Assembly: GCA_027483665.1 (NCBI GenBank)
Contig: JAIXUC010000029.1
Span: forward strand, 1-64,000
From: Comamonadaceae bacterium
GTDB taxonomy: Bacteria > Pseudomonadota > Gammaproteobacteria > Burkholderiales > Burkholderiaceae_C
Direction: 5' to 3'
DNA length: 64,000 nt
Under the pieces are notes generated by a model, which did not search any database, was not told where the DNA came from, and saw only the letters and a list, made by a program, of their open reading frames with translations. Below are positions 39,409 to 50,913 of this stretch, piece after piece. How positions within the stretch are numbered: position 1 is the first letter of the stretch; each line of letters begins with the position of its first letter. A program made the translations under genes and the position numbers.

Positions 39409-40125
39409 TCAGTTCAGCAACAAACCCTTGGTTTCGATGAAGCGCACCACCTCGGCCAGACCTTGCTGGGTTTTAAGGTTGGTCATGACGTAAGGCTTGA
39501 CGCTGCGGGCAGCGCCTGAGGCGACAACACCGGGGCTGGCGCGCATGCGCTCGGTATCAGCCGCCATCACCGCCAAATCTGCGCCCACGTGCGGCGCCAG
39601 GTCGGTTTTGTTGATCACGAACAGGTCGCTCTTGGTGATGCCGGGGCCGCCTTTGCGCGGGATTTTTTCTCCAGCGGCCACGTCAATTACGTAGATGGTG
39701 AGGTCGGAGAGTTCCGGGCTGAAGGTGGCGGCTAGGTTGTCCCCGCCCGACTCCACGAACACGATGTCGGCGTTGGGAAACTGCACCAGCATGCGGTCGA
39801 TGGCCTCCAAGTTGATGGAGGCGTCTTCTCGAATGGCGGTGTGCGGGCAGCCCCCTGTCTCCACGCCCATGATGCGCTCGGCCGGCAGCGCACCACTCAC
39901 GGTCAGCAGGCGCTGGTCTTCCTTGGTGTAGATGTCGTTGGTGATGGCCACCAAGTCCCAGCGCTCGCGCATGGCTTTGCACAGCATCTCCAGCAGCGTG
40001 GTTTTGCCAGAGCCCACCGGCCCGCCAATGCCCACGCGCAGCGGCGGCAGGTGTTTGCTGCGCCCGGCGATGCGGTGCAGGCTGGGTTTGTTGGTCGTAG
40101 GGGTGGCTGGCTGCGGTGTGTTCAT
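39409..40125 (-). CDS. ureG: Urease accessory GTPase UreG
   Basis: UreG hydrolyses GTP to drive nickel insertion into urease. The 238 residues have P-loop [15 protein letters not shown], the metal-binding CPH motif in [22 protein letters not shown] and [13 protein letters not shown]. The start is ATG 40123-40125, overlapping the ureF stop. About 30 N-terminal residues precede the G domain. It is the last gene of the operon. Confidence 0.97.
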
Positions 40126-40820
40126 GATCTGAAGAGCCTGGAGTATTGGGTTTCGTGTCGGGCCGAGAGAATGGCCAACATGGGGCTGAAGGCTTGGCGC
40201 TGCGCATGGGGTGCCAAGGCTGCATCCACACAGCGCGGCAGCATGGCCGCCAACTGTTGCAGCACACGCTGACCTGCGTTTTGGCCCAGCGGCACGGCTT
40301 TGAGCGCGGCTTGCACCATGGCCTCGCACCAGCCAAAGCCAAAAGCCAGCAGGCCGTCGCGCTCGGAGGCCGGCGTCAGGCTCAAGGCCAGCGCAAAAGA
40401 CACGGGGTAGCTGGGGTCCATGTCCGCCAGGGCTTGAATTTGTTCTGGTGCGGCGGTGTGCTGTTGGCGCAGCCACTCCAGCAGCGAGCGGCCCATTTGC
40501 TCGGTTTGCAGCCGCAACTCGGCGCTCTCGCGGGTTTGCAGCACCCAGGCGTTGACCTCGCGCACCTGAGCCCAATCTCCCGTGCGCCAGCCGCGCCAAG
40601 CGTCTCGCAGCGCGGGCAGTTCGCTGCGTTGCAAACACAGCTCAGCTTGCGCCAACAGCCAGCGCGCGGTGCTGGCTTCGTCGTGAACGTGGCCCGCGTC
40701 CACCGCAGCTTCCAGCCCTTCGGAGTAAGAAAAGCCGCCGATGGGCAAGGCGGGCGAGGCCAGCCAGATCAGCGACAACAGACCCGCCGTGGCCGGTGCT
40801 GCGGCCGCAGGATCAGCCAT
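40122..40820 (-). CDS. ureF: Urease accessory protein UreF
   Basis: UreF is the helical accessory protein that gates UreG activity in the activation complex. The 232 residues contain [21 protein letters not shown], the family hallmark. The start is ATG 40818-40820 (MADPAAAA), overlapping the end of ureE by 8 bp; the longer open frame upstream is only the ureE His-tail read in another frame. Confidence 0.96.
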
Positions 40821-41346
40821 GCTGGTGGCGGTGGTCATGGCCGTGGTCATGGTCATGGTCATGCCCGTGGCCCGAGGCATGCGCGTGACCGTGGTCGCCA
40901 TACGCGCCGGCTTCTGGCTCAAAAACCGCGTCGCTGGCGGTCACGATGAGGTGCATGCGCCGCAGCATCTCGGCCAGCACGTGGTCTGGCTCGATCTTCA
41001 GATGGTCGGCGCGCAGCTCGATGGGCACATGCCGGTTGCCCAGGTGGTAGGCAGCGCGGGTCAGGTCGAAAGGCGTGCCGTGGCTTTTGCAGTGGGTGAT
41101 CACCAACACCGGCTGGGGCGCGGCCTCCACCCGAATGAGTGAGCCGTCTTCTGCCACCAGCACGTCGCCGCCGCGCACCACTTGCCCCCGCTCCAAAAAA
41201 ACACCCAGTCGGCGCCCCTGCGAGTCGGTGGCCTCGAAGCGGCTTTTCTGGCGCACATCCCAGTCGAGGCAAACGACGGCGGCGCGACGCACCAAGACGG
41301 AAGCCAAGCCCTGGCCAGATGGGAGGAGTTTGTTGATGGTCAGCAT
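40813..41346 (-). CDS. ureE: Urease accessory nickel chaperone UreE
   Basis: UreE carries nickel to the urease apoprotein. Of the 177 residues, the N-terminal domain (about 1-75) and the metal-binding C-terminal domain with the [11 protein letters not shown] segment are standard. The last 27 residues form a tail with 12 histidines alternating with Asp and Gly, ideal for nickel storage. The tail is encoded by ggtcat-like hexamer repeats around 40830-40870. Confidence 0.97.
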
Positions 41347-41409: not shown

Positions 41410-43161
41410 TCAGAACAAAAAATAGCGCTGCGCCATCGGCAATTCGGTGGCCGGCTCGCAGGTCAGCAATTGGCCGTCGGCGCGCACGGCGTAGGTTTGG
41501 GCGTCGATGTCCATGGCCGGGGTGTAGGCGTTGTGGACCATGTCGCGCTTCTTCACGTTGCGGCAGGCCTTCACCGCCACGGCGGTCTTCTTCAGGCCGT
41601 ATTGCGCCGGCTTGCCTTGAGCGATGGCGGCCTGCGAGACAAATGTCAGCGAGCAAGCCGCGAGCGCACCGCCGAAGGCTGCGAATTGCGGGCGGTAGTG
41701 CACCGGCTGCGGCGTGGGGATGGAAGCGTTGGGGTCGCCCATGGCGGCCATGGCGACCAAGCCGCCCTTCAACACCAGCGAAGGTTTGACGCCGAAGAAG
41801 GCGGGCTTCCACAGCACCAGATCAGCCCACTTGCCCACTTCGATGGAACCCACCTCGTGCGCAAAGCCGTGGGTGAGTGCTGGGTTGATGCTGAGCTTGG
41901 CCACGTAGCGTTTGGCACGGGCGTTGTCGCAGCGCGCCGTGTCGCCGTCCATGCCGCCGGGCTGCCCGGCGCTGGGTAGGCTGCCGCGCTGCACCTTCAT
42001 CTTGTGCGCGGTTTGCCAGCAGCGGGTGATGACCTCGCCCACGCGGCCCATGGCTTGGCTGTCGGAGCTGAACATGCTGATGGCACCCAGGTCGTGCAGG
42101 ATGTCTTCAGCAGCAATGGTTTCCTTGCGGATGCGGCTCTCGGCAAAAGCCAAGTCTTCGGCGATGCCTGCATCGAGGTGATGGCACACCATCAGCATGT
42201 CCACGTGCTCGTCGAGCGTGTTGATGGTGTAGGGCCGCGTCGGGTTGGTCGAAGATGGCAGCACATTGGCCTCACCCACCACCTTCATGATGTCCGGCGC
42301 ATGCCCGCCGCCTGCGCCTTCGGTGTGAAAGCTGTGGATGGTGCGGCCCTTGAAGGCGGCCACGGTGTCTTCGACAAAACCGCTTTCGTTGAGCGTGTCG
42401 GTGTGGATGGCGATTTGCGTGTCGGTGTCTTCTGCCACCGACAGCGCGCAGTCGATGGCAGCGGGTGTCGTGCCCCAGTCTTCGTGCAGCTTCAAGCCGA
42501 TGGCACCGGCTTCGATTTGCTGCTTCAAGGCGGGCTGCAAGCTGGCGTTGCCCTTGCCCAGAAAGCCCAAGTTCATGGGGAATGCTTCAGCGGCCTGCAG
42601 CATCAACTCGATGTGCTTGGGGCCCGGCGTGCAGGTGGTGGCGAAGGTGCCGGTGGCAGGGCCGGTGCCGCCGCCAGTCATGGTGGTCACGCCGGAAGAC
42701 AGCGCTTCTTCGATCTGCTGCGCGCAAATGAAGTGGATGTGCGTGTCGATGGCACCCGGCGTGACGATCATGCCCTCGCCCGCGATGATTTCTGTGCCTG
42801 GGCCGATGACGATGTCGACGCCCGGCTGGACATCCGGGTTGCCGGCTTTGCCAATGCCCACGATGCGGTGCGCGCGGATGCCGATGTCGGCCTTCACGAT
42901 GCCCCAGTGGTCCAGGATGACCGCGTTGGTGATGACGCAGTCCACCGCGTCCATGGCGCCAGGGCCGTTGACCTGCTGCGACTGGCCCATGCCGTCGCGG
43001 ATGGTTTTGCCGCCGCCGAACTTCACCTCTTCACCGTAGCCACCGGCTTTGAGCGTGAAGTCTTTTTCAATCTCGATCACCAGGGCCGTGTCGGCCAAGC
43101 GCAGGCGGTCGCCCACCGTGGGGCCGAACATTTCGGCGTAAGCGCGGCGTCCGATCTTCAC
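41410..43161 (-). CDS. ureC: Urease alpha subunit
   Basis: UreC is the catalytic subunit that hydrolyses urea to ammonia and carbamate at a dinuclear nickel site. The 583 residues contain the HIHF nickel ligands (IDTHIHF), the carbamylated lysine in GLKLHEDWG, and the active-site flap [13 protein letters not shown]. The protein is slightly longer than typical (about 567-570) because of a Gly/Pro-rich insertion around residues 390-405 ([12 protein letters not shown]). It overlaps ureB by 4 bp. Confidence 0.98.
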
Positions 43162-43481
43162 AGCGCGCCCATGACCTGGCCACGAAAGCCGAAAACTCGG
43201 CGCGCGCCGGCGTACTCGACCAGTTCCACGGTGCGTTGCTGGCCGGGCTCGAAGCGCACCGCAGTACCAGAGGCGATGTGCAAGCGCATGCCGCGTGCTG
43301 CGGCGCGGTCAAAGTCCAGTGCGCCGTTGGTCTCTGCAAAGTGGTAGTGCGAGCCGACCTGAATGGGCCGATCGCTGGCGTTGCGCACCACCAGCTTCAA
43401 GGTGCGCCTGCCAGGGTTGAGTGCCAGCTCGCCATCGGCTGGGAACAATTCGCCGGGAATGAGGGGAGTGCTGGAGGCCAT
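43158..43481 (-). CDS. ureB: Urease beta subunit
   Basis: The 107 residues start [18 protein letters not shown] and contain [17 protein letters not shown] and [16 protein letters not shown], the typical UreB segments. It is a structural subunit of the urease trimer. It lies 12 bp downstream of ureJ and overlaps ureC. Confidence 0.97.
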
Positions 43482-43493
43482 CGCAGGGTGTCC

Positions 43494-44114
43494 TCAGGCC
43501 AGACCGGCCAGCATGTAGACACCCAGGCCCGCCACCACTGCACCTACGCTGCGCGCCAGCCACAAGCTGCGCGCTTGGCCGAAGTGGCCCAAAGCCATGC
43601 CCGCCAAGTGCAGCGCTGCGGTGCTGGCCAGCATGCCCACTAAAGCCCAGGCCGTGTTGCCGCCTGCCAGCTCAGCGCCGTGGGCCACGCCGTGAAACAC
43701 GGCAAAGGTGCCGACCAAAGCCACCGCAGCGGCCACTTGCAGCCTTTGCCGCGCACAGATCAGCAAGCCCATCACCAACACCGAGGCAGCGATCATGGGC
43801 TCGATAGCGGGCACTGCCACGCCTGTTGCGCCCAAGAGCGCACCACACAACAGCATGAGCACAAAGGCGACTGGCCCGAGCCAGGCGGGCCGCAGCACCA
43901 GCGCGCTCCACACGCCGACAGCCAGCATGGCGGCCAAGTGGTCCAGACCGGTCAGCGGGTGCAGCAGGCCGTCAAAAAAACCGTGGTGCGCAGCGCCGTC
44001 GGCACCGGTGTGGGCCAAGGCCGGCAGCGCGGCACCCGCGATGAGGGCAAGCAGGATCGGCCGCGCAGCGCGAAGGCTATGGGCCGGTGGTCGGTGGAGG
44101 GGCTTGGCGGACAT
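43494..44114 (-). CDS. ureJ: HupE/UreJ family membrane protein
   Basis: The 206 residues have an N-terminal signal segment ending ALPALAH, the family motif GLLHPLTGLDHLAAMLAVG (histidines likely bind metal) and about six hydrophobic segments. HupE/UreJ proteins are thought to carry nickel into the cell. Its position between ureA and ureB fits a nickel supply role for urease. The 110 bp between ureA and ureJ hold no feature I can name. Confidence 0.93.
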   Translation of the reverse strand: MSAKPLHRPPAHSLRAARPILLALIAGAALPALAHTGADGAAHHGFFDGLLHPLTGLDHLAAMLAVGVWSALVLRPAWLGPVAFVLMLLCGALLGATGVAVPAIEPMIAASVLVMGLLICARQRLQVAAAVALVGTFAVFHGVAHGAELAGGNTAWALVGMLASTAALHLAGMALGHFGQARSLWLARSVGAVVAGLGVYMLAGLA

Positions 44115-44224: not shown

Positions 44225-44527
44225 TCAAGGAATCGGCTGGTGCACCGTGACGAGCTTGGTGCCGTCGGGGAAGGTGGCTTCGACCTGAATGTCGGGAATC
44301 ATCTCGGCCACTCCCTCCATCACATCGGCGCGGGTGAGTACCTCGCGCCCGGCGCTCATGAGTTGCGCCACGGTGCGGCCATCGCGTGCACCTTCCATGA
44401 CAGCCGCCGTGATCAGCGCCACGGCCTCGGGGTAGTTCAGCTTGAGCCCGCGCGCACGCCGCCGTTCGGCCAACAAGGCTGCCGTGAAGATGAGCAGCTT
44501 GTCTTTTTCGCGCGGGGTCAGTTCCAT
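44225..44527 (-). CDS. ureA: Urease gamma subunit
   Basis: The 100 residues are a canonical Ure[34 protein letters not shown], and the end VTVHQPIP. It is the first urease gene here. No ureD precedes it: 74 bp upstream, on the opposite strand, begins the permease-kinase fusion. The urease promoter must therefore lie in 44528-44601 or inside that gene. Confidence 0.98.
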
Positions 44528-44601
44528 GCTGGGCTCAGAGCAAGCCCCGTGCCCGGGAAGGGGATCGCTGCTTGTGGCACAGAAACTGCACCAAGCCCAG
44601 C

Positions 44602-47600
44602 ATGAGCGATGCCCTGGCAGACGTCGGACGCCCGCAGGCGCCGCAGCGGGTCATCAAGATCCGGCGTGACTACAACCACTGGGTCGGCAGCGAGACCATG
44701 GAGGACTACGCGCTGCGCTACACGCCGCAGCGCTTTCGCAAGTGGTCCGAGTCTCGGGTGGCGCACACCGCTTTTGGGGCCGCTTCCTTCCTCATCTTGG
44801 AGGCCGTGGGCGCCACCTTGCTGGTGCAGTACGGATTTCTCAACGCCTTCTGGGCGATCTTGGCCACCGGGCTCATCATTTTTCTGGCGGGCTGGCCCAT
44901 CAGCGTGTATGCCGCACGCTACGGTGTCGACATGGACCTGCTCACACGCGGCGCTGGATTTGGCTATTTGGGCTCGACCATCACCTCGCTCATCTACGCC
45001 TCGTTCACCTTCATCTTCTTTGCGCTCGAAGCGGCTGTCATGGCTTATGCGCTGGAGCTGGCGCTCGACATTCCGCCGGCCTGGGGCTATCTGATCTGCT
45101 CTCTGGTGGTGATTCCCCTGGTGACTCACGGCGTGTCGGTCATCAGCCGCCTGCAGTTGTGGACGCAGGGCGTTTGGTTGGTGATGTTGATCGTGCCCTA
45201 CGCGGCCGTGTTGATGCACGATGCTGGTGCGTTCTCTGGCTTGGTGCACTACGCTGGTGAGGACGGCCAAGGTGGCACCTTTCAGTGGCACCTCTTTGGC
45301 GCGGCACTGACTGTGGGTGTGGCGCTCATGACCCAAATGGGCGAACAGGCCGACTACCTGCGTTTCATGCCGGCGGAGCAGCCGGGTCGCCGCTGGCGCT
45401 GGTGGGCTGGTGTGTTGGCCGGTGGCCCAGGCTGGGTGCTGCTGGGCGTGGCCAAGATGCTGGGCGGCGCTGCATTGGCTTGGCTGGCCATCCAGCTCAT
45501 GGTGCCCACCGACCGCGCGGTGGACCCCAACCAGATGTACCTGGCCGCTTACCAATACGTGTTCCCGCAGTACGGCTGGGCGGTGGCGGCCACGGCGATC
45601 TTCGTCGTGGTCTCGCAGCTCAAGATCAACGTCACCAATGCCTATGCCGGCTCGCTGGCCTGGAGCAACTTTTTCTCGCGCCTGACGCACAGCCACCCGG
45701 GCCGGGTGGTGTGGGTGGTGTTCAACACGGCCATTGCCTTTGTGCTCATGGAGATGGAGGTGTTCCAGGCGCTGGGTCGGGTGCTGGGGCTGTACTCCAA
45801 CATCGCGATTGCCTGGATGATGGCCGTGGTGGCCGACTTGGTCATCAACAAGCCGCTGGGCCTGTCGCCCAAGGGCATCGAGTTCAAGCGTGCGCACCTC
45901 TACGACATCAACCCCGTGGGCGTGGGCGCCATGGGCCTGGCCTCGGTGCTGTCCATCAGCGCTTACTTGGGGGCATTCGGTCCGATGGCGCAGGCCTTCT
46001 CGGCCATCGTCGCGCTGGTCACGGCCATGGTGACTTCGCCACTCATCGCCTGGGCCACGCGTGGGCGCTATTACTTGGCGCGCACCTCGACGGCTGAGCC
46101 CTCTGAGCCGCTTCATCCCGCTCACCCAGCCTCCTCGGCTGCAGCGGGGCAAGCCGTCGAAGACACTGCCGATCCAGCGCACGCATCAGGCTCTTACCAG
46201 CGATGGCGCATGAGCACCTGCGTGATTTGTGAGCGCGCCTACGAAGGCCCGGACATGGCGCACTGCCCGGCTTACCAAGGCCCCATCTGCTCTTTGTGCT
46301 GCACGCTGGACGCCCGGTGTGGCGACTTGTGCAAGCCCGAGGCGCATTTCTCGGCGCAATGGCAGGCGCTGCTGCAACGCCTGCTGCCTGCCCGCCTGTG
46401 GCCTTTGCTCGACCGGGGCTTGGGGCACTTTGTCTTGCTCATGGGGCTCATCACACCCTTGTTGGCGGCCTTGTTTGCGCTGCTCTACCAGCAGGCCACA
46501 GCCGATGTGACCATGAGCGCGCAACAGGTACAGGCCTTGCGCGACGGCATGCTCAAGGCTTATTTGGCGCTGCTGCTGCTGGGGGGCGTGGTGGCTTGGT
46601 GGCTGGTGCTGGCGCAAAAGAGCCGTGCGGTGGCGCAAGAGGAATCGAACCGCCAAACGCACTTGTTGATGCGTGAGATCGCGCTGCACCGCCAGACCGA
46701 CATGGCCTTGCAGCAAGCCCGCCAAGTGGCAGAGGCCGCACGCCGCCAGGCCGACTCCGCCAACTTGGCCAAAAGTCGCTACTTGAGCGCCATGAGCCAC
46801 GAGTTGCGCACACCGCTCAACAGCATCTTGGGCTATGCGCAACTCATGGGCGCAGATCCCGAGGTTCCGCCGCATCGGCTGCAAGCGGTGCAGGTCATCC
46901 AGCGCAGCGGTGAGCACTTGCTGCAACTCATGGAAGGCACGCTGGACATCGCACGCATCGAGGCGGGCAAGCTCAGCCTGGACATGCGACCCATGGCTCT
47001 CGGGCCCTGCATCGACGAGCTGATGGCCTTGTTCGAACCGCAAGCGCAGGCCAAGGGCTTGGTGCTGCGCTGTGAAGTGGAAGGCAACTTGCCGCAGCGC
47101 GTGCGTGCCGACGAAAAGCGCTTGCGGCAAATCCTCATCAACCTGTTGGGCAACGCGGTGAAATTCACCGAGCAAGGGCAGGTGGTGCTGCGCGTGCGCT
47201 ACGCCCGAGAAATGGCGCACTTAGAGGTGCAAGACAGCGGCCCCGGTTTGTCGCCAGAACAAATCGCCACCGTATTCGAGCCCTTCACGCGCGCCGTGCC
47301 CGCAGGCTCATTGGTGCCAGGTTCGGGCTTGGGCCTGACGATGGCGCGCATGCTGACCGACTTGATGGGTGGCGAGTTGCAGGTCAGCAGCGCGCCCGGC
47401 CAAGGCACCGTGTTTAGGCTGCGCCTGTTCCTGCCCGAAGTGTCTGTGGCGACCATCTCGCCATTGCCCGCTGTGCCTCTGCTGGAGCGCTTTCGCCCTC
47501 CGCTTTCGGGCACGAAGGCCAAGCGCCGGGTGCTGGTGGTGGACAACGAAGAGGCCGACCGCGAGTTGCTGGTGCAACTGCTGGCTCCGCTGGGTTTCGC

Positions 47601-48279
47601 CATCGACACCGCTGCGAGCGGTCATGAAGCGCTGGCCTGGCTGGAATCCCACCCCGAGTCCGCGCCGGACGTCGTGCTGATGGATTTGGCCATGCCCGGC
47701 ATCGACGGCTGGGAGACCATTCGCCGCTTGCGCTTGCGCCCCGGCCCTCAGCCGGCCGTGGCGGTGGTGTCTGCCAATGCCTTCGAGCGCGCTGCTGACA
47801 ACCCCATGGGCATTGCGCCAGAAGATTTCATCGTCAAGCCGGTGCGGCACGCAGAGTTACTCGACTGGCTGGAGCGGCACTTGGCGCAGCCCGAGCGCCC
47901 TGTCGCCCAAGCCGCACCAGCAGCGCCAACCGCGCCAACCGCGCAGGGCATGCCAAGTACCCCAAGCGCTCCAAGTGCACAGAACACCGCGGAAGTGCCC
48001 ACGGCAACACCTGAGGCTGTAGGCTTCAGCGCCCTGCCCAGCACGGACCAACTCGATGCTTTGTTGAGCCTGGTACGCATGGGCTACTACCGTGGCATCT
48101 TGAACCACCTCGACGCCATGGAAGCAGGCTTGCCCCCAGGCGCCGACTTTGTTCGGCGCTTGCGCACCCAAGCGCAGGCTTACCAATTCGACGCCATGCA
48201 GCGCGTTTTGCTTCAAGCCCTCGCGTTCAGCGGGCGGGAGTACGGCGGAGATGACAGCCCGCCAGAATCAGCCGCCTGA
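44602..48279 (+). CDS. Permease-sensor kinase fusion: NCS1-like transporter + Cys-rich module + histidine kinase + receiver
   Basis: This 1225-residue inner-membrane protein starts at ATG 44602 (MSDALADV). Residues about 30-490 form a permease of some 12 helices resembling purine/cytosine (NCS1) permeases ([27 protein letters not shown]). A Pro/Ala-rich linker leads to eight cysteines at 540-577 (CVIC...CSLCC...CGDLC). Two more helices follow at about 610-629 and 653-672. The kinase has phospho-acceptor His733 ([11 protein letters not shown]), N-box Asn851, DSGPGL and GSGLGL. The receiver has Asp1028 and Lys1079. About 90 helical residues close the protein after a Pro/Ala/Thr linker. It diverges from ureA and precedes its likely partner regulator by 2 bp. 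The ligand is unknown; nitrogenous compounds are suggested by the urease neighbourhood. Confidence 0.88.
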
Positions 48280-48281
48280 AC

Positions 48282-49352
48282 ATGGCCCACTCACCCATGA
48301 CCGAGCACCACACGATCGACCGCAGCGTCAGCGACGTGGTGCTGATCGTGGACGACATGCCGGGCAACCTGTCCATGCTGCACGACGCGCTTGAAGAGTC
48401 GGGCTACACCGTGCTGCTGGCCACCAGCGGCGAGGCAGCACTCGCCAGTGCGGGGCAGGCGGTGCCCGACATCGTCTTGCTCGATGCGCTCATGCCTGGC
48501 ATGGATGGCTTTGAGGTGGCACGCAGGCTCAAGGCGACGCCGCATACCGCGCACATTCCCATCGTTTTCATGACAGGTCTGACCGAGACCGAGCACTTGG
48601 TGGCCGCGTTCGAAGCGGGCGGTGCCGATTACGTCACCAAGCCGGTGCGGCCCTTGGAGGTGTTGGCGCGCATGGCCGCGCACCTGCAGGGCGCTCGCCA
48701 AGCCCGGCAAGCCCGTAACGCGCTGGACGCTTTTGGCTACGCCAGCATGACCGTGCGCGCTGAAGATGGTCGCGTCATGTGGCAAACGCCTTTGGCACGC
48801 GGGCTGTTGGCGCGTTACTTCGCCGAGGGCTCGCCGCCCGGCCAGTTGCGCGTGCCGCAGACGGTGTTGCAGTGGTTGCAAGCGCACGCCATGCCCGGCG
48901 CTGCTCCACCAATGGGCCTGGAGATGGGCATGGACGCTGCCGCTCCACCCAGCGAAGCAGCTGTATCCAGCGAGCTGGGCGAAACCCTCAGCTTGCCCCT
49001 GGTGGTCACGCAAGGCGCGAGCCGACTGGAGCTGCGCCTGCATGCACCCGCTGGCCCTGGCGGCGAGGAAGACCTCGATTGGTTGATCGTCATGCGCGAG
49101 GTGTCCGACACCGCCGTGATCGACTCGATGGTGCACGCCTTCGGCCTGACCGCACGCGAGGCCGAGGTGCTGTATTGGGTGGTCAAAGGCAAGACCAACC
49201 GCGACATTGGCGACATCTTGGGCTCCAGCCCCGCCACCGTGAAAAAGCAACTCGAACACGTGTTTGTGAAGCTGGGTGTGGAGACGCGCACTGCAGCGGC
49301 CGGTGTGGCGCTGCGCCGCATACGGGCACTACAACCGCAGTTCGGCGGCTGA
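48282..49352 (+). CDS. Response regulator with LuxR-type DNA-binding domain
   Basis: The 356 residues have an N-terminal receiver with acidic pocket VDD (24-25), phospho-acceptor Asp68 (LLDALMPGMDG) and Lys120 (YVTKPVRP). A central region of about 130 residues, PAS-like in position but not recognised, follows. The LuxR/FixJ helix-turn-helix is at about 285-345 (LTAREAEVLYWVVKGKTNRDIGDIL). Its start lies 2 bp after the permease-kinase stop, so it is the cognate output by context; an internal ATG at 48297 is possible. Likely targets are the divergent urease operon or its own promoter. Read-through into the thi operon is blocked only by the riboswitch expression platform. Confidence 0.92.
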   Translation: MAHSPMTEHHTIDRSVSDVVLIVDDMPGNLSMLHDALEESGYTVLLATSGEAALASAGQAVPDIVLLDALMPGMDGFEVARRLKATPHTAHIPIVFMTGLTETEHLVAAFEAGGADYVTKPVRPLEVLARMAAHLQGARQARQARNALDAFGYASMTVRAEDGRVMWQTPLARGLLARYFAEGSPPGQLRVPQTVLQWLQAHAMPGAAPPMGLEMGMDAAAPPSEAAVSSELGETLSLPLVVTQGASRLELRLHAPAGPGGEEDLDWLIVMREVSDTAVIDSMVHAFGLTAREAEVLYWVVKGKTNRDIGDILGSSPATVKKQLEHVFVKLGVETRTAAAGVALRRIRALQPQFGG

Positions 49353-49404
49353 TCGCCCGCGGCTAACCCGCACCTATACTCCGCCCGCGCTGGCAACGGC
49401 GCAT

Positions 49405-49497
49405 CCGCTGGGGGTGTTGCCAAGGCTGTTGTGGCCTGGGTGACTGAGAGAGTCCCTTCGAACCTGATTGAGGTAATCCTCGCGCAGGGAAGCAAAC
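49405..49497 (+). promoter_or_regulatory. TPP riboswitch (THI element)
   Basis: The conserved thi-box parts are in order: gctgggggtg at the 5' side, then CTGAGAGAGTCCCTTCG, AACCTGATTGAGGTAAT and CGCGCAGGGAAGCA. The closing P1 helix can form from gct (49407) and agc (49491). A TATACT at 49375-49380 is a candidate -10 box. About 80 bp separate the aptamer from the cytX start, with an ggagg ribosome site at 49568-49572 that the expression platform may mask. It should switch cytX-thiOSGE off when thiamin diphosphate is plentiful. Confidence 0.96.
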
Positions 49498-49578
49498 CGC
49501 AGGACTGAGGCGCTCTCATGCCTTGGTCGCAGAACCTGCGGTCGGCCCACCTGCCGTTCGTTCGCTTGGAGGCGATGA

Positions 49579-50913
49579 ATGGCCATGTCACCTGACCTTT
49601 CTTCCAACCCCGCAGCCCCTGCGCTGGTGCCCATTGCCCTGTCGGACCGCGTGTTCGGCTTTCACCACCATCTGGCCTTGTGGTTCAGCTTGGGCACGGG
49701 CTTGCTGGTCATACAAATCGGCGCTTACCTGGTGCCTGCTGTCGGCACGCGCGACGCTGCGCTGGCCATCGTCCTCGGCTCGGTGATCGGCGCCGGCCTT
49801 TTGGCTTGGACAGCGCGGTTGGGCTGCCGCACGGGCTTGTCCAGCGCGGGCCTGATGCAGGCCACCTACGGCAGCGCCTTTGCCCGGTTGCCGGTGCTGC
49901 TCAACATCGTGCAGCTCATTGGCTGGACTACTTTTGAGCTGGTGGTCATGCGCGATGGCACCTCGGCCATGCTGCGCCATGTGTTCGGTTGGGACTTGAG
50001 CGGTCTTTGGGGCGTGCTGGCCACCACGGTGTTGTGGGGCGCGGTGCTCACGGCGCTGATGACGGCCTCGATGCTCGGGCTGGTGCGCCGCTTCGTAGGG
50101 CGCTATGGCCTGCCGCTGGTGGCCGCGTCCTTGATCTGGCTGGCCTGGCAGTTCTGGCAACGCCTGCCAGATGGCGCGCAGGCGTTCTGGGACCGCCCGG
50201 GCAACGGCAGCATGGGCCTGTTTTCTGCGGTGGACTTGGTCATTGCGATGCCGGTTTCCTGGTTGCCGCTGGTGGCTGATTACGCGCGCTATGGCAAGAG
50301 CGGCGGCTCCACGATGCGCGGCACCTGGTTGGGTTACGCCCTGGCCAACACCGCCTGCTACGGCTTGGGCGTGCTGGTGGCCAGCACCGTGGCCCCTGGC
50401 ACCGACTTGGTCGCCGCTTTGCTGCTGGCCCAAGGCGGTTTGCTGGCGCTGGGTCTGATCTTGCTCGACGAAATGGACAACGCCTACGGCGACGCGCACA
50501 GCGCAGCGGTGTCGGCGCAAAGCCTGCAGCCGCGTTTCAGCTTGCGCCGCTGGGCCGTGCTGATGGCGCTGGTGTGTACCGCGCTGGCCGTGGTGTTGCC
50601 GATGCGCAGCCTGGAGCCCTTCATGCTGATGCTCAGCTCGGTGTTTGTGCCGCTGTACGGCGTCATTCTTGGGCGCTGGGCCTTGCGGGCGAACCGCGCC
50701 CAAGCTAGCGACGTGCAACTGCAGCCCGCGCTGCCCACCCGGGCGGTCGACTGGTCAGCTGCGGCCATCTGGTTGAGTGGCATTGCCTGCTTTCATGGGC
50801 TGGCGCAATGGGCGCCGGGCTGGGGCTCTGCCCTGCCCACGCTGGCGCTCACCTTCGCGTTGGCCTGGGCCACAGCACCAGCGCGAGCAGCCGCAGCGCC
50901 CGTTGGGACCTGA
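49579..50913 (+). CDS. cytX: Putative hydroxymethylpyrimidine transporter CytX (NCS1 family)
   Basis: This 444-residue membrane protein has about 12 helices. The NCS1-type opening is FGFHHHLALWFSLGTGLLVIQ and the segment NIVQLIGWTTFELVVMRDG follows. Start ATG 49579 has ggagg 7 bp upstream. The riboswitch in front and thi genes behind match CytX, proposed from comparative genomics to import the thiamin pyrimidine precursor. It is the second permease of this superfamily within 5 kb. It is 6 bp upstream of thiO. Confidence 0.88.
   Translation: MAMSPDLSSNPAAPALVPIALSDRVFGFHHHLALWFSLGTGLLVIQIGAYLVPAVGTRDAALAIVLGSVIGAGLLAWTARLGCRTGLSSAGLMQATYGSAFARLPVLLNIVQLIGWTTFELVVMRDGTSAMLRHVFGWDLSGLWGVLATTVLWGAVLTALMTASMLGLVRRFVGRYGLPLVAASLIWLAWQFWQRLPDGAQAFWDRPGNGSMGLFSAVDLVIAMPVSWLPLVADYARYGKSGGSTMRGTWLGYALANTACYGLGVLVASTVAPGTDLVAALLLAQGGLLALGLILLDEMDNAYGDAHSAAVSAQSLQPRFSLRRWAVLMALVCTALAVVLPMRSLEPFMLMLSSVFVPLYGVILGRWALRANRAQASDVQLQPALPTRAVDWSAAAIWLSGIACFHGLAQWAPGWGSALPTLALTFALAWATAPARAAAAPVGT

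Follow-up and report, generated by a model that had tools for sequence, protein, structure and literature searches.

An NCS1-type permease-histidine kinase divergent from urease genes, a candidate urea-responsive sensor for urea uptake

The window analysed here is a 64,000-nucleotide stretch from a Comamonadaceae bacterium (assembly GCA_027483665.1, contig JAIXUC010000029.1, positions 1 to 64,000 of the forward strand). The subject of this report is a pair of genes at its urease cluster, one encoding a protein that joins a permease-like membrane domain to a hybrid histidine kinase, the other a response regulator of the LuxR type (Table 1). According to the open reading frame coordinates, 2 bp separate the kinase stop codon from the regulator start. 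The kinase gene and ureA are divergent and lie back to back, 74 bp apart. An initial annotation of this DNA had described both reading frames, the short junction between them and the 74-bp spacing, and the coordinates agree with it on each count.

Table 1. Features of the permease-kinase locus and of the adjoining urease genes (window coordinates)
Feature	Position	Strand	Basis or remark
Permease-hybrid histidine kinase gene, 1225 amino acids	44602-48279	+	open reading frame and Pfam
NCS1-fold permease domain, residues 1-498	44602-46095	+	relatives, predicted fold
Eight-cysteine cassette C-x2-C-x11-C-x7-CSLCC-x5-C-x3-C, residues 540-577	46219-46332	+	
Two further helices ahead of the kinase, residues ~606-690	46417-46671	+	predicted structure
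HisKA domain with His733	46768-46968	+	Pfam, alignment
HATPase_c domain	47110-47433	+	Pfam
Receiver domain with Asp1028	47530-47868	+	Pfam, alignment
Response regulator gene, REC and LuxR-type helix-turn-helix, 356 amino acids	48282-49352	+	open reading frame and Pfam
Intergenic region ureA/kinase, 74 bp between start codons	44528-44601	no strand	
Sigma54-like -24/-12 element toward kinase, TGGCACAGAAACTGC	44575-44589	+	conserved in relatives
Sigma54-like -24/-12 element toward ureA, GGGCACGGGGCTTGC	44540-44554	-	sole exact copy in window
ureA, urease gamma subunit	44225-44527	-	named by match to annotated relatives
hupE/ureJ-like gene	43494-44114	-	name taken from Mitsuaria annotation
ureB	43158-43481	-	open reading frame, match to annotated relatives, marker proteins
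ureC	41410-43161	-	open reading frame, match to annotated relatives, marker proteins
ureE, ureF, ureG	39409-41346	-	open reading frames, match to annotated relatives, marker proteins

The C-terminal part of the large protein is a HisKA hybrid kinase, with Pfam domains HisKA (residues 723-789), HATPase_c (837-944) and REC (977-1089) and with both phospho-residues in place. His733 is kept as histidine in 48/48 aligned fusions. Asp1028 is aspartate in 44/48, the remaining four being shorter fusions (923-983 amino acids) that carry no receiver. Ahead of the kinase, the structure model places helices at residues 606-634 and 640-690. The kinase with its His733, the receiver with its Asp1028 and the two extra helices had all been named from the letters alone, and the Pfam domains, the alignment and the model bear them out. 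The helical tail is unsupported as a histidine phosphotransfer domain; the single histidine within residues 1140-1225 is not conserved among the aligned fusions. The regulator joins REC (20-130) to GerE (289-342), that is, a receiver to a LuxR-type helix-turn-helix, and so belongs with the NarL/LuxR-type response regulators. A Pfam search found no AAA+ sigma54-interaction domain in it, which sets it apart from the sigma54-dependent activators.

The initial annotation had proposed searching residues 1-500 and 500-1225 separately for domains, and the two halves respond very differently: the kinase half is clear in Pfam and the permease half is silent. Residues 1-500 match no Pfam family at E ≤ 0.1 besides MscL (0.066), which covers only residues 462-489. 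The NCS1 profile PF02133 is unmatched at E ≤ 0.1 by the window protein and by 14/14 aligned fusion domains, and PDB sequence searches with the permease domain found nothing. Because residues 1-500 have no useful Pfam match, the label 'NCS1-like', given earlier to this domain, needed proof from relatives and from the fold. Both provide it. A stand-alone relative that aligns to the permease domain over 467 columns with 45% identity matches PF02133 at 1.4e-9; a second stand-alone relative has no match. The NCBIfam cytosine permease model is matched by 6/14 fusion domains (best 1e-8), the window's own domain being among those without a match. A structure model of residues 1-691 has a mean predicted local distance difference test score (pLDDT) of 81.8, and CodB and Mhp1 stand at the top of both comparisons made with it, Foldseek and VIA-align (CodB, Z 34.2 over 398 residues; Mhp1, Z 29.8; region ~28-489). 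An SLC5 domain at the N-terminus is not supported, since no SLC5 profile is matched and NCS1 structures outrank SLC5-type ones. The plant urea transporter DUR3, of another family, comes 15th in the second list, level with many other LeuT-fold rows, and is not used as evidence. The predicted fold, together with homology to NCS1-matching relatives, indicates that the N-terminal domain is of the NCS1 type. Residues invariant in 48/48 fusions include D110, D112, R116, E248, Q249, K341, N343 and N346.

Between the permease and the two further helices lies the eight-cysteine cassette, which had been noticed earlier as a Cys-rich block and proves to be real and rigidly spaced. In a survey that left out two rows of ≤480 amino acids (L175, with a misread start, and L183, a gene cut by a stop), the exact spacing was present in 205/212 proteins over 480 amino acids. 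The carriers are 203/203 proteins of at least 800 amino acids, one fusion truncated at a contig end and a stand-alone permease that adjoins formamidase. Of the seven without it, three are stand-alone permeases and three are distant NCS1 proteins; the last is a gene that a contig end cuts off ahead of the cassette. The three stand-alone permeases bear a short form with four cysteines. Since stand-alone permeases without a kinase carry the full or the four-cysteine form, the cassette, as judged from these sequences, travels with the permease lineage and not solely with the kinase. Residues 500-720 match no Pfam family, and an 83-residue cassette model found no significant match in the PDB, a search that included no direct comparison with STAC. 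The model (pLDDT 71.7) gives only insignificant PDB structure matches (E ≥ 0.3), mostly to zinc fingers of the PHD, RING and FYVE type; profile matches to RING and treble-clef families are weak, and PDB sequence matches to zinc fingers are at chance level. For these reasons 'zinc-binding' remains a guess.

Proteins of this kind are widespread. A match occurs in 115 of 200 genomes from the window's family; five of these matches are weak (E 7e-10 or worse) and are treated as distant NCS1 proteins. A class-level draw gave a match in 18/369 genomes, and a phylum-level draw with a stand-alone relative as query gave 64/398, weak NCS1 matches included; among the matches listed in the latter, 57/57 at E ≤ 3.2e-101 lie in open frames of at least 894 amino acids, which is fusion-sized. 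The regulator accompanies the kinase: it is matched no more than 1.2 kb past the kinase in 175/195 fusions with enough sequence.

To score genomic context, 210 loci were read against one fixed panel of marker proteins. Among loci of the window's clade (over 70% identity) that have 3 kb or more of upstream sequence, ureA or ureC lies within 10 kb in 84/100, and ureA, ureC or urtA in 88/100. Counting all loci read, 84 have the fusion and ureA in divergent orientation no more than 1 kb apart. Mitsuaria sp. 7 has the same arrangement, with urtAB ~7 kb further along. Of the 93 other fusions, 84 likewise have genes for urea or amide uptake or hydrolysis nearby. These are solely of the amide kind (formamidase, amidase or amide-type urtA) in 69 cases, solely urea genes in 13 and of both kinds in 2; the last 9 fusions have neither. 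As the 93 include a few plasmid records chosen by score and 80 of the clade loci are best hits, these shares are not random-sample rates. This survey upholds the link to urease and nitrogen genes suggested by the initial annotation, and the lack of linkage that it had named as a refutation did not occur. A quick tree was built from 124 permease domains, 35 of its 121 branches being weak. The window falls there among 22 rows linked to urease, 17 of them divergent from ureA, three with other urea genes and two without; at least eight changes between urea and amide contexts are needed on that tree.

The four close stand-alone permeases are placed in a similar way. Two terminate urease operons (Klebsiella; genome G476), and a third precedes fmdA-fmdB-amiE, facing a fusion. 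The fourth, from Acinetobacter, also faces a fusion, and neither urea nor amide markers lie close by. On two plasmid loci (L036 and L045; E. coli and Klebsiella), an amide-clade fusion stands beside urtABCDE and formamidase. These plasmids also bear resistance or KPC names. The permease domain is matched by 342 Klebsiella plasmid records, the context described here being that of one of them. Further afield, an SCP2 sterol-carrier domain is joined to a distant NCS1-like protein in Streptomyces (L044:5938-7920).

A candidate site for the regulator emerges from the same loci. The 16-bp palindrome TACGYCA-N2-TGRCGTA is common to the amide-clade intergenic regions, with at least 11/14 positions matched in 56/59 (1.5 expected), and it reaches that score in 26/80 urease-clade intergenic regions (0.5 expected). 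The consensus was drawn from the former and widened (Y/R) after the latter had been viewed; the urtA promoters of the urease clade played no part in drawing it. A site of at least 11/14 occurs within 300 bp upstream of 40/45 urease-type urtA genes and 58/61 amide-type ones, as against 3/31 for amiE, 1/67 for urtB and 82/3000 for windows drawn at random from these loci. The 4.08 Mb of locus sequence contain 138 sites of at least 12: fusions or permeases have 77 of them no more than 450 bp upstream, urease-type urtA 39, fmdA eight, amiE two and amide-type urtA one, and 11 are elsewhere. A -10-like hexamer stands exactly 23 bp past the palindrome in 30/36 urease-type and 25/49 amide-type urtA promoters (shuffled best ≤5 and ≤6, respectively). 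The palindrome centre would thus be near -43.5 relative to the urtA start, the position near which class II activators bind. CrbR, a LuxR-family regulator like the one in the window, is reported to require an imperfect inverted repeat that spans -52 to -36, immediately ahead of the RpoD promoter (PMC5715377; here and below, papers are cited for the passages concerned). In the window genome there is one single-mismatch place, on another contig (C29:150864-150879), upstream of the genome's own urtA and with TAGCAT 23 bp on.

The palindrome was also compared with the presence of the pair in sampled genomes of the family. A site of at least 12/14 was found in 29/29 urtA promoters of genomes with the fusion and in 4/30 of those without it. 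The loci were the best 30 of 51 and the best 30 of 40 genomes with urtA, respectively, one fusion locus having no upstream sequence; they came, in the same order, from 60 hand-picked genomes and from 80 of the 90 that lacked a strong match. The permease domain was found in 0/17 no-fusion genomes checked further, with a query that finds it in other genomes. Three of these 17 retain a regulator homologue (G061, G173 and G111), and all three have the site (13, 13 and 11). Two of the four no-fusion genomes with a site of at least 12 keep the regulator. The 14 genomes with neither fusion nor regulator divide into 12 without a site (at least 11) and two with one. The site thus appears to go with the regulator, as it should if it is bound by that protein: 3/3 regulator-only genomes have the site and 12/14 without the regulator have none. 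From these distributions TACGYCA-N2-TGRCGTA is the probable site of the regulator. In G173 and G061 the regulator homologue is directly divergent from ureA, in the place expected of the fusion (L315:6854-8273 and L317:4792-6212).

The intergenic region itself carries two sigma54-like elements, one in each direction. Counting as a match at least 5/7 scored bases with GG and GC fixed, 80 ureA-kinase intergenic regions have kinase-ward matches in 62 (shuffled mean 2.0) and ureA-ward matches in 58 (2.8), the counts here and in the amide clade coming from related, not independent, sequences. Among 59 amide-clade regions, matches toward the kinase occur in 26 (shuffled mean 2.9), and those toward urtA are at chance, with 4 (3.9). 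In the window, the bare pattern of the kinase-ward element has three occurrences, which is not above chance. By these patterns the promoters of ureA and of the kinase look sigma54-dependent. As the regulator has no sigma54-activator domain, a separate activator would be needed, probably NtrC. The window genome has two strong PF00158 matches, which are candidates for this activator, and four weaker ones, all outside the regulator.

Architecture, fold, context, site and co-occurrence, all computed, led us to the proposal that this is a transceptor-type two-component pair that responds to urea and activates urea uptake, a reading to which we give a probability of about 0.72. Urea would occupy the NCS1-fold domain, as would formamide, acetamide and similar small amides in related clades, and the change of shape would pass through the cassette and the two-helix hairpin to the kinase. 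The kinase would autophosphorylate His733 and hand the phosphate, possibly through its own receiver, to the LuxR-type regulator. A phosphorylated regulator dimer would bind the palindrome, centred ~43 bp before the urtABCDE start, and recruit RNA polymerase as a class II activator, and the high-affinity importer urtABCDE would be made in the presence of urea. Nitrogen limitation, probably acting through NtrC, would set the level of both urease and sensor via the divergent sigma54-type promoters. In Methylophilus methylotrophus, a formamidase-transporter cluster is reported to be induced by formamide and urea and repressed by ammonia (review PMC10781810), which fits the proposed double control; the passage names no regulator. 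The initial annotation had assigned the regulator to the control of urease or nitrogen use. The connection with urea and nitrogen stands, with urtABCDE, located on another contig, predicted as the direct target in place of ureA.

Several observations weigh against this proposal. The context shares describe fusion loci alone. The window's own ureA-kinase intergenic region scores 7/14, which is no site, and action of the regulator there in the window genome fails as a candidate. Sites of at least 11/14 lie upstream of ureA in 27/102 cases, weak support for control of urease, and upstream of fmdA in 10/66, with the hexamer at no fixed distance. Direct control of ureA by the regulator is not established, because the promoters are sigma54-like, the regulator has no sigma54 domain and the window's intergenic region has no candidate site. 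Besides the single-mismatch place, the window genome has nine two-mismatch places (10 in total); the reversed pattern gives 61 at two mismatches or fewer, undivided by mismatch class, so that the two-mismatch places carry no meaning and the single-mismatch place alone stands out. The Fisher value for site versus fusion, 8e-13, overstates independence, since the genomes are related. The two genomes with a site and no regulator found are draft assemblies, one in 340 contigs and one, 74% complete, in 460. Finally, the kinase activities of CbrA are reported to be unaffected by the histidine that it transports (PMC7096432).

This last result would equally suit a different view, in which the permease is a scaffold and the cassette reads a cytoplasmic signal such as nitrogen state, metal or redox, for example the metal supply for urease. 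The identical cysteine spacing in all proteins of at least 800 amino acids also agrees with it. However, kinase-less permeases end in the full cassette (one) or its four-cysteine form (three), so the cassette goes with the permease, and the invariant permease residues would be unexpected of an idle scaffold; we regard a scaffold as unlikely. Still less probable, indeed close to dismissible, is the signal of the initial annotation, a purine, hydantoin or allantoin, with the regulator controlling urease as the last step of the route. Structurally similar NCS1 proteins carry cytosine and hydantoins, according to structure entry titles. Against this, the recurring neighbours are urt, ure, fmdA and amiE (purine and hydantoin genes were not among the markers), and stand-alone relatives are found in operons for urease and amidase. 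The sequence contexts make urea or short-chain amides most likely as the signal, ahead of nucleobases.

It might also be that the pair has a separate regulon and adjoins urease without regulating urea genes. Sixteen of the 100 clade loci lack ureA or ureC within 10 kb, four of these having urtA, and most ureA promoters have no site; yet the association recurs across the tree, and the urtA site is present or absent along with the pair, which makes mere adjacency very improbable. Within the urea-responsive reading, a further question is whether the domain actively imports urea in addition to signalling or is a receptor that no longer transports. Stand-alone relatives at 45% identity lie in operons where an importer is expected, and CbrA is reported still to transport histidine (PMC7096432). 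Conversely, Ks-Amt5 is reported to bind its ligand without transport, having lost it on becoming a sensor (PMC5764959), and uptake is already supplied by urtABCDE. We rate the signalling importer as the somewhat less likely of the two.

Several known systems resemble the window pair in part. CrbS/CrbR and RpuS/RpuR, SLC5-STAC kinases with their regulators, also have a transporter domain fused to a kinase, and their reported targets are genes for using the sensed compound, as proposed here. Unlike CrbS and RpuS, the window protein has NCS1 in place of SLC5, the eight-cysteine cassette at the position that STAC takes in them, and urea/amide genes instead of acetate/pyruvate genes. The SLC5-STAC histidine transceptor CbrA is another transporter-kinase fusion; it differs in its SLC5, STAC and PAS domains (PMC13022988) and in transporting histidine (PMC7096432). 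Ks-Amt5 offers a parallel, a transporter for a nitrogen compound that was recruited as a kinase sensor, as is proposed for the window protein; it differs in its Amt fold and its 679 amino acids, and in lacking PAS, HAMP and STAC linkers in the description consulted (PMC5764959). CodB and Mhp1 share the fold of residues ~28-489 and differ in being kinase-less, in their substrates and in sequence (14-16% identity in the structural alignment). The urease-linked stand-alone 'cytosine permease' of Klebsiella pneumoniae is 45% identical across the permease domain and carries a short tail with cysteines; it differs in having four of these there and in the absence of a kinase.

Among the matches listed from the open-licence full-text literature, none describes an NCS1-kinase fusion or such a urea/amide-sensing kinase, an absence that is not proof. 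A 1131-amino-acid kinase and a receiver are listed before urtA in PMC2907700, and a hybrid kinase and LuxR regulator are named beside a urtABCDE operon in PMC13296017, in both cases without analysis in the passages concerned; we do not claim family membership for either. Two reports deal with plasmid-borne or acquired clusters of urea transporter and formamidase or amidase genes in Klebsiella (PMC13060141, PMC13209695), and their main texts contain neither 'two-component' nor 'histidine kinase'.

If the proposal is true, it would supply the sensor, regulator, DNA site and targets through which many beta- and alphaproteobacteria control their use of urea and amides. Another transporter family would join those reused as kinase sensors, besides SLC5 (CbrA, CrbS), Amt (Ks-Amt5) and the S-component-like kinases (PMC11109136), and the pair would offer a simple system for asking whether transporter-kinase fusions read occupancy or flux. 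The E. coli and Klebsiella loci suggest that urtABCDE-formamidase clusters on such plasmids bring their own sensor. A broader picture is offered tentatively: a wide proteobacterial family of NCS1-based urea/amide transceptors, with an obligatory eight-cysteine, possibly metal-binding, module in the place of STAC, might give an output that depends on both ligand and the metal or redox state of the module, might have moved repeatedly between urease and amidase operons, and might now reside on enterobacterial plasmids.

Some minor features of the surroundings may be added. The ureD gene of the window genome lies outside the window's urease cluster, on another contig (L046:5722-12791, G000:C29), beside urtABCDE and on the opposite strand. 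An Rfam match to '5 ureB sRNA' (window 42705-43003, plus strand) is antisense to ureC; it is set aside as a real RNA, coding homology being likelier. Past the regulator, 47 bp after its stop codon, begins a thiamine pyrophosphate riboswitch-like element (window 49400-49507, plus strand; RF00059, 52.5 bits, E 1e-9), just under the gathering score of 54.3 and ahead of an NCS1 transporter gene (49579-50913). We take this transporter to be CytX-like; thiamine-type genes are presumably also there.

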